Below are positions 15,637-57,643 of a stretch of 64,000 nt of DNA, in pieces. The notes under the pieces were generated by a model. The model searched no databases. It was not told the DNA's origin and saw only the letters and a list, made by a program, of their open reading frames with translations. Source of the DNA: Haloarcula sp. CBA1129 (GTDB lineage Archaea > Halobacteriota > Halobacteria > Halobacteriales > Haloarculaceae); assembly GCF_008729015.1 (NCBI RefSeq), contig NZ_RKSM01000001.1:1178001-1242000 (forward strand), given 5' to 3'. The first letter of the stretch is position 1. Every line of letters starts with the position of its first letter. A program made the translations under genes and the position numbers.

Positions 15637-16695
15637 TCAGCTCTCGTCACGCTGCTCGTCGACACACTCACGGAGCGGCGTGAGGACTTCATCGACGACA
15701 GTGTACGGGTCGGTGTGGCGCTCGATGACGGCGTCGACGTACTGTTCGATGCCGCCGCGGCGGTCGAGTTCGTCGACCAGTAGCTCGTTGGCGTCTTCCC
15801 GGAGGAGGGTTCGAATCTCGGCGGCGAATCGCTCCCGTGCCTGCCCCTCTCGGCGGCCAGTCCGGTCCAGATATTCCCCGTGGTCGGCTAAAACGTCGAG
15901 GAAGTCTTCGACGCCCTCGCCCCGGTTGGCGACCGTCTCCACGATTGGCGGGTCCCACGTCTCCGGCTCGTCGTCCCCGTCATCGGAATCGCCGGCGTGC
16001 GCGTCACCGTGGTCGCCGCCGAGCTCGGTCGCGCCGTGATGCCCGGAGTCCGGTCGCCCACTCCGCCCCTGTAGCATCTCCCGGAGCTGCTGGACCGTCC
16101 GGTCGGCTCCATCAAGGTCGGCTTTGTTGACCACGAACACGTCCCCGATTTCGAGGATGCCGGCTTTGAGCATCTGCACGTCGTCACCGCTACCCGGCGG
16201 GACGAGTACGGCGACGGTGTCGGCAGTCCGGACGATATCCACCTCGTTTTGGCCCGCGCCGACTGTCTCGACGATGATCTTGTCCTTGCCGAAGGCGTCC
16301 AGTGCGGTCACGGCGTCGGTCGTCGCCGTCGACAGCCCGCCCAGCGAGCCACGGGCGGACATCGACCGGAAGAACATGTCCATGTCGCCCGCGTTCGACG
16401 CCATCCGTATCCGGTCGCCGAGCACCGCACCGCCCGAAAACGGCGAAGACGGGTCGATAGCGATGACGCCGACGGTCAGGCCCTGCTCTCGGTAGGTCGC
16501 CGCTACCTTGTCGACCAGCGTGGACTTCCCTGCGCCGGGACTCCCGGTAACGCCGATAACGTCGGCCGTCCCGGTGTGCTGGTGGAGGTCGGAGATCACC
16601 TCGCGATACCCCGGCGAGCGGTTCTCTATCTGTGTGATGACTCTGGCGAGGGCGCTGTGCTTGCCCGCGAGCAGGTCAGCGACGAGATCGCTCAT
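15637..16695 (-). CDS. meaB: MeaB-type GTPase (methylmalonyl-CoA mutase chaperone)
   Basis: A 352-residue G3E-family GTPase. The P-loop is GSPGAGKSTLVDK, the switch region is VIAIDPSSPFSGGAVLGDRIRM and the NKxD motif is VNKADLDGAD. Such proteins protect and reload the B12 cofactor of methylmalonyl-CoA mutase. It overlaps the gene for the B12-binding mutase subunit by 4 bp, which supports this role. An insertion rich in Asp, Gly and His (residues about 222-255, HHGATELGGDHGDAHAG) interrupts the domain after NKxD and is not part of the usual family. Confidence 0.92.
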   Translation of the reverse strand: MSDLVADLLAGKHSALARVITQIENRSPGYREVISDLHQHTGTADVIGVTGSPGAGKSTLVDKVAATYREQGLTVGVIAIDPSSPFSGGAVLGDRIRMASNAGDMDMFFRSMSARGSLGGLSTATTDAVTALDAFGKDKIIVETVGAGQNEVDIVRTADTVAVLVPPGSGDDVQMLKAGILEIGDVFVVNKADLDGADRTVQQLREMLQGRSGRPDSGHHGATELGGDHGDAHAGDSDDGDDEPETWDPPIVETVANRGEGVEDFLDVLADHGEYLDRTGRREGQARERFAAEIRTLLREDANELLVDELDRRGGIEQYVDAVIERHTDPYTVVDEVLTPLRECVDEQRDES

Positions 16696-17114
16696 CGCTC
16701 AGGTGCGTTCTCGTGGATGTAGTCGATCATCTCCTCCATCGACGCGCCCGGGCCGAATATCTCGTCGACGCCCTGTCCGCGGAGTTCGTCCTGATCGTCG
16801 TCCGGGACGATACCACCGACGAGGATGAGCCGGTCGTCGAACGCGTCGTACTCCTTTAGCCCGTCGAGGATCTTCGGGACGAGCGTGTTGTGTGCCCCTG
16901 AGAGGATGGAGATACCGACGACATCCACGTCCTCCTGCACGGCGGCCTGCACGACTTCGTCGGGCGCTCGATGGAGCCCTGAGTAAATCACTTCAAAGCC
17001 GGCGTCACGGAGCGCCCGTGCGATAACGTGTGCGCCCCGGTCGTGACCGTCGAGTCCAACTTTCGCCACCAGACACCTGATGGTCCGTTCCGTCTGCTCC
17101 TGCTCGACACTCAT
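16692..17114 (-). CDS. B12-binding subunit of methylmalonyl-CoA mutase
   Basis: A 140-residue cobalamin-binding protein with the DxHxxG motif (GLDGHDRGAHVI), SxL (GISILSGAHN) and a GG motif (LILVGGIVPDDD). It represents the small subunit of a split mutase; the catalytic subunit is not in this window. The start at 17114 (MSVEQEQTERTIR) is preferred to an upstream ATG because the extra residues are Arg-rich and unlike the family. The mutase makes succinyl-CoA from methylmalonyl-CoA, a step of propionate use and of the methylaspartate cycle. Confidence 0.9.
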   Translation of the reverse strand: MSVEQEQTERTIRCLVAKVGLDGHDRGAHVIARALRDAGFEVIYSGLHRAPDEVVQAAVQEDVDVVGISILSGAHNTLVPKILDGLKEYDAFDDRLILVGGIVPDDDQDELRGQGVDEIFGPGASMEEMIDYIHENAPER

Positions 17115-17385
17115 GCCACTACGTACCGCGCGGTGTGTTTTCATTCTTGCCCTATTCATCATGACCTATGTCGATTACGAGCGACCCTCGGGAAGCGGTG
17201 GTTGTCAGTACTCATTTCACCCCGCCGCTGAGAAGCAAGGGTCCCGACCGTTGGATTTTCCATCGGCTGTAACTCACAGCGGTCGGTTTAGTGTGAGCTG
17301 CGGGGCCAGACGCAGGGTGTCAGATCCAGTAGTACTGTTCCAGAGAACGACAATTACAAGTTCGCTGCTAGCGGCGTTTCCACCA

Positions 17386-56647: not shown

Positions 56648-56818
56648 TCAGTTGTCGTGGTACACGTAGAGGAGGTTCGGATACGGGATGTATGCGACCC
56701 GTTCCAGTCCGCCGCTGCCGACCTCCTTTTTCAGGTGGACGCCGTTTGATCCTTCGACCACGTCGTGGATGTTCTTGATTTCGGTGCCGTCACTCAGCTC
56801 AGCTGTCATATGAGACAT
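56648..56818 (-). CDS. Small haloarchaeal protein of 56 residues
   Basis: An ORF with two in-frame starts (56818, MSHMTAELSDG; or 56809, MTAELSDG). It reads ELSDGTEIKNIHDVVEGSN, then LKKEVGSGGLERVAYIPYP and ends NLLYVYHDN. Alternating polar/hydrophobic residues suggest a small beta-rich domain. Third-position GC and a position between two genes of the same strand support it. Function unknown. Confidence 0.65.
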   Translation of the reverse strand: MSHMTAELSDGTEIKNIHDVVEGSNGVHLKKEVGSGGLERVAYIPYPNLLYVYHDN

Positions 56819-56942: not shown

Positions 56943-57389
56943 TCAGGAGCCGAGCTGGATTTTCTCGGACGACGCTTCCTCGCGGGAGCGGTGACCGAGG
57001 TCGGCTTTCAGCGCCTCAATAGCCTCCTCCGGATCGGTTTCGGAGTTAAAGACTCGGTCGAACCCGAGCGCCTTGAACGTCTCGCGCGTCTCCTCGAAGG
57101 AGTCCTGTCCGACGGCGAGGTTGCCGCCGATGTACGTCGTCACGTCCAGTCCTGCCTCGTTGATCTGCTGCTGGAACCCTTGGCAGTCCTGCTCGGCGTG
57201 GCCGTACAGCGACGAAACGAGTATCGCCTCGGCGTCGTGTTCATCCGCGGCGTCGATGAACTCCGACTGGGACGACTGGACACCGAGGTTGACTACGCTG
57301 AACCCCGCCGCTTCGAACGCTCGTTCCAGAATGGTAATCCCAACGACGTGCGCGTCGGAGCCGATGACACCGAGGATGACTGTCCTCAT
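56943..57389 (-). CDS. mamA: Methylaspartate (glutamate) mutase small subunit, apparently orphan
   Basis: A 148-residue B12-binding protein with the DxHxxG motif (GVIGSDAHVVGITILERAF), GVQSSQSEFI, LVSSLYGHAEQD and YIGGNLAVGQ. This is the pattern of glutamate mutase GlmS. It pairs with a large subunit to interconvert glutamate and 3-methylaspartate, a key step of the methylaspartate cycle known in Haloarcula. The large subunit and methylaspartate ammonia-lyase would be expected next to it, but the next genes in its direction are the 56-residue ORF and the FMN reductase. The tail EEASSEKIQLGS is unusual. Confidence 0.85.
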   Translation of the reverse strand: MRTVILGVIGSDAHVVGITILERAFEAAGFSVVNLGVQSSQSEFIDAADEHDAEAILVSSLYGHAEQDCQGFQQQINEAGLDVTTYIGGNLAVGQDSFEETRETFKALGFDRVFNSETDPEEAIEALKADLGHRSREEASSEKIQLGS

Positions 57390-57643
57390 ACAAGACCACC
57401 AATGGGTGTCAACTACATAAACCTAATGATAAACCATGATAGATTATGGGAAGCGTTCACACACACACAGCAGGGAGAGGATATTAGCCGTGATAGCACA
57501 AACGAACCGATAGACACAGCATCTATGGTACGGGACACGCCTCAGCGTTCGACCGAGCCACTGGGACGACGCCGTCTGTCACGCCGGTCCACCCAGTGTG
57601 GCACCCGCCCGGAACAATCTATCTGTCCAGCGTTGGGATACGC

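Follow-up and report, generated by a model that had tools for sequence, protein, structure and literature searches.

The stand-alone mamA gene of the window (the 64-kb stretch analysed here, bases 1178001-1242000 of contig C1 in a 4.05-Mb genome) probably encodes a second cobalamin-carrying S-subunit isoform, MamA2, which would serve the single MamB of this genome and be co-regulated with mamAB. This reading draws on the protein family, an intact B12 motif, purifying selection, co-occurrence with mamB, and a promoter element common with mamAB. Because this element is the same as that of the usual partner genes, a spare or extra subunit of the acetate-assimilation enzyme is most likely, not a new sensor.

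Table 1. Window positions of the solo mamA gene, its promoter elements, and further features
Feature	Position	Strand	Basis or remark
Second, stand-alone mamA (methylaspartate/glutamate mutase S subunit)	56943..57389	(-)	148 aa ORF; family profile scores and B12 motif
TATA-box-like TTTATG	57416..57421	(-)	27-32 bp before the start codon of window mamA
Operator-like ATCATGGTTTATCATTA, near-palindrome ATG-N6-CAT	57424..57440	(-)	common to the canonical mamAB promoter
56-aa ORF	56648-56818	(-)	between the FMN reductase gene and solo mamA
Methylmalonyl-CoA mutase small chain overlapping meaB	15637-17162	(-)	profile matches

In profile searches, the window MamA reaches 216.4 bits on NF002612 (cut-off 110) and 182.3 bits on TIGR01501 (cut-off 135.8), both of which are models of "methylaspartate mutase subunit S". 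The B12 motif, which an earlier note on this DNA had described as intact, is indeed complete (D12-x-H14-x-x-G17, DxHxxG), as are S59-S-L61-Y62 and G88-G-N90. D12, H14, and G17 of the base-off/His-on DxHxxG, together with SxL and GGN, presumably are the B12 contacts. D12, H14, G17, S59, L61, and G88-G89-N90 do not vary among the distinct solo proteins compared, 13 from Haloarcula and 25 from elsewhere (without L103). The B12-binding domain (residues 3-123 of 148) is the sole domain above the Pfam cut-off, and the same profile search revealed no extra output or DNA-binding domain above that threshold. Scores for the methylmalonyl-CoA mutase small chain (TIGR00640, 34.1 bits against a cut-off of 57.45) and for methyltransferase corrinoid proteins (TIGR02370, 37.8 against 215.3 bits) stay below the limits of these models. 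The alignment with clostridial GlmS (PDB 1CCW/1CB7) covers residues 2-132 (E 1.5e-37), with DxHxxG, SSLYG, and GGN conserved in both proteins. MamA2 would accordingly be expected to bind coenzyme B12 through DxHxxG, like its paralogue.

The genome contains three PF02310 B12-binding matches at E <= 0.001, namely the methylmalonyl-CoA mutase small chain, the window MamA, and a MamA at C1:581.7 kb. The latter heads the methylaspartate-cycle cluster, in which a divergent Mct is followed by MamA, MamB, Mal, Mch, and Mcl, all six above NCBIfam cut-offs; 653 kb separate it from the window mamA on one contig. The large subunit MamB/GlmE is present once (a single PF06368 match in a genome rated 99.99% complete) and adjoins the canonical mamA. 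This cluster elsewhere on the contig includes both a mamA and the only mamB found, which makes the window gene a second mamA, its product 70-72% identical to the first MamA. The earlier note had thus correctly considered a second copy. A search for another mamA/mamB pair yielded the canonical one and no mamB beyond it; of the alternative that the window gene is the only copy with mamB located elsewhere, the second half applies to the single mamB, while the first does not. The other partner envisaged for the gene finds no support, as there is one MamB-type protein, the B12-motif residues are unchanged, and the promoter element is common with mamAB; with one mamB found, a separate partner was discarded. 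MamA2 would instead dock on MamB, the only large subunit found in the genome, encoded about 653 kb away.

Two S-subunit homologues in some haloarchaea are already on record: a figure legend in PMC3404096 describes species with two, of which only one lies at the methylaspartate cycle locus. The canonical haloarchaeal MamA of this cycle (PMC5592240, PMC3404096) has its family and B12 motifs in common with the window MamA, and the two also have the promoter element in common. The canonical gene heads mamA-mamB-mal-mch-mcl, whereas the window mamA stands alone. Its neighbours on one side encode an FMN reductase and a Yip1-domain protein, those on the opposite side a GNAT acetyltransferase and a Na/Ca exchanger. 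In tblastn searches of the 64-kb window with the genome's own proteins, MamB gave nothing significant (one 33-residue stretch at E 0.34) and Mal gave zero matches, which confirms the reported lack of large subunit and ammonia-lyase genes beside it. Adjacency to mamB/glmE, usual but not defining for S subunits, is therefore missing here.

The window has a second B12 protein (16692-17162; TIGR00640, 166 bits), the methylmalonyl-CoA mutase small chain. It has the B12-binding domain in common with the window MamA, belongs to a different subfamily, and adjoins meaB. The two B12 modules pointed out previously are both real, and such a pair in one window is ordinary. Two methylmalonyl-CoA mutase large chains are encoded at C1:538.8 kb and C1:1477.8 kb, with one small chain for both.

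The solo and canonical mamA genes are preceded by a 25-bp element at equal distance from the ATG (solo, TATCATGGTTTATCATTAGGTTTAT; canonical, TATCATGAAAGACCATTAGGTTTAT), with 20/25 positions identical. Compared with 124 regions upstream of other mechanical ORFs of the genome, either element matches at <=16 positions, and 3000 shuffled pairs give <=19. A near-palindrome ATG-N6-CAT abuts the TATA box on its upstream side. The exact pattern ATMATG-N6-CATTA occurs at two sites in the 4.05-Mb genome, upstream of solo and canonical mamA; as the pattern was derived from these two promoters, finding both is by construction, and the informative part is that no other exact match occurs. One mismatch yields 24 sites in the genome versus 36 for the reversed control, and TTTAT two bases beyond the pattern is found at 0/22 of the other sites. 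A genome-wide regulon was hence discarded, with no further member found.

The element is present in all 16 solo-carrying genomes of the genus, with small differences; in two of them (G021 and G016), the solo core GTCTTT is the reverse complement of the canonical AAAGAC. Within 110 fetched loci, to which the scan was limited and which include some genomes twice and some loci without mamA, CATTA-N2-TTTAT closely precedes mamA in 100 and is absent from the rest of their 1.45 Mb on both strands. Counted over distinct rows, CATTA-N2-TTTA precedes 13/13 Haloarcula solo, 24/26 other solo, 20/20 Haloarcula paired, 57/69 other paired, and 0/4 bacterial genes, and ATN-ATG-N6-CATTA precedes 12/13, 0/26, 17/20, 59/69, and 0/4, respectively. 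Solos outside Haloarcula thus commonly have the TATA-proximal half alone (AYCATTA-N2-TTTA in 24/26, the full form in 0/26). A divergent mamA-mamB lineage (L196 of G245, L101, L102) has upstream regions without the element. On the mct side of the mct-mamA intergenic region, a second site, TGATAAATCATTATA, is seen in L079, L081, L083, and L093; it is degenerate in the window's own genome.

The element sits about where PMC10817205 places the BRE, and an activating or a repressing role is alike conceivable. According to the same paper, methylaspartate operon expression is elevated in a trmB deletion when glucose is absent, and TrmB is suggested to act indirectly. In the literature searched (titles and abstract openings), no paper dealt with a dedicated regulator of the methylaspartate cycle, or with the function or promoter of a second mamA copy; the 25-bp element common to the solo and mamAB promoters is what is new here. 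This common promoter DNA could be a relic of duplication. Under the favoured reading, MamA2 would be transcribed from its own promoter carrying the operator-like element of the mct/mamAB promoter, so that both S subunits would be made when the methylaspartate cycle is on, and MamA2 would serve MamB together with MamA1.

A column comparison of distinct proteins (solo, 13 from Haloarcula and 25 from elsewhere; paired, 20 from Haloarcula and 69 from elsewhere) shows little or no variation in blocks 7-17, 57-64, and 85-95, in solo as in haloarchaeal paired MamA. The B12 loop GVIGSDAHVVG and the SSLYGHA and YIGGNLAVG blocks are the same or nearly the same across the two classes; differences fall mostly in the remaining segments and the C-terminal tail. 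Over 14 genomes, dN/dS (mean dN over mean dS) is 0.033 for solo mamA, 0.059 for paired mamA, and 0.022 for mamB. Solo mamA is under purifying selection.

Within the genus, 16/32 genomes have a solo mamA, each along with one canonical mamA and one mamB; mamB occurs in 27/32, and 11 of these 27 do without the solo gene. The gap between solo mamA and the FMN reductase gene is <0.5 kb in 14/16 genomes and about 2.5 kb in G021, while in G016 the two genes lie on separate contigs. In an order-level sample of 392 genomes (MamA counted at E <= 1e-30, MamB at E <= 1e-50, tallied by reading rows), MamA-like proteins occur in 150 and MamB in 151. MamA exceeds MamB in 62/392 genomes (62 of the 150 MamA carriers), 16 of them Haloarcula and 46 from one other family (f7). 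All 62 have MamB, a co-occurrence that is inflated by shared ancestry. Two MamA and two MamB each are found in G006, G114, and G313; G006, a genome of the genus, has two mamA-mamB pairs with equal scores (L063 and L064). In G203 (L197, L199) and G362 (L200, L202), one paired copy is accompanied by two further MamA genes whose fetched stretches contain no mamB.

For the trees, as for the column comparison and row counts, identical proteins were collapsed. L103 (G101, 72% complete), labelled solo because its stretch had no mamB, was included in the trees and promoter class counts and left out of the column comparison and the test holding all solos together. Placing the window MamA by identity fails, as the Natrialbaceae solos (73-82%) overlap with paired MamA of other genera (69-81%; best 80 of 117 loci). 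In a first tree, 31/33 solo rows shared one fork with 3 paired rows (SH-aLRT 94), which was lost in the larger tree. There, with few columns and an unresolved backbone, the Haloarcula solos form one clade (99/84) separate from Haloarcula paired MamA. A tree with all solos held together scores above the free tree (lnL +8.9, AU p 0.689), and a single origin of all solo genes is neither shown nor rejected.

These data bear on the possibility that MamA2 is a redundant duplicate without a distinct role. Duplication inside the genus is not rejected (lnL -21.8, AU p 0.194), and 11 of the mamB-bearing genus genomes lack the gene. However, the low dN/dS, the separate Haloarcula solo clade, and the promoter element kept in all 16 genomes make mere redundancy rather unlikely.

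We also consider it unlikely that MamA2 acts as a free cobalamin-binding regulator or B12 store, signalling or buffering B12 without MamB. The missing mamB neighbour would fit this view, as would the Natrialbaceae solos. Among MamA loci in named genomes (best 80 of 117), mamB is absent from the fetched flank in 26, 7 of them from Haloarcula and 19 from Natrialbaceae. In 18/19 of the latter, the upstream gene comes from one BLAST cluster, represented in L111 by a PRTase-domain protein (NF006328, PF00156); another cluster, represented in L111 by thrS, is present in 17/19. Yet gene neighbours differ between Haloarcula and Natrialbaceae. Besides MamA, only two clusters occur in >=3 loci of both groups (best 80 of 117 loci), and we see no shared partner gene, because these clusters consist at least partly of frames that overlap mamA and the PRTase gene or lie opposite them. 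The bare single domain of 148 residues, the MamB found in every genome of the order sample with surplus MamA, and the common promoter element further argue against such a regulator, which the earlier note had suggested as a free sensor. Finally, partnership with another B12 mutase large chain, such as one of the two methylmalonyl-CoA mutase large chains that have one small chain of their type among the three PF02310 proteins, is highly improbable given the low score on the small-chain model and the B12-motif blocks, which keep the residues of haloarchaeal paired MamA.

As to why an S subunit for MamB should exist twice, more S subunit (dosage), easier cofactor renewal, or condition-tuned isoforms can be guessed at. 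The subunits of clostridial glutamate mutase bind each other weakly, and in vitro an excess of S is required, so that extra S would be useful. In three bacterial records, glmE is close to glmS, with a glmL-type gene between them in two and none in one; the window mamA has no mamB beside it. GlmL (PF13941) is found above cut-off in 0/195 sampled haloarchaeal genomes, with weak, partial matches in 15. It is conceivable, though improbable, that the haloarchaeal solo S subunit is a co-regulated, exchangeable B12 cartridge, bringing fresh coenzyme to MamB and carrying damaged cofactor away, and so replaces a reactivase. The lack of GlmL matches is the starting point of this idea; the bacterial pair without intervening glmL and the many mamB-bearing haloarchaea of the order sample without surplus MamA speak against it.

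The question is thereby raised how glutamate mutase stays active where GlmL was not found. With MamA2 as a probable second S subunit for MamB, an apparent orphan takes a testable place in the methylaspartate cycle, and the element upstream of both mamA genes is a candidate operator for a regulator of this cycle.
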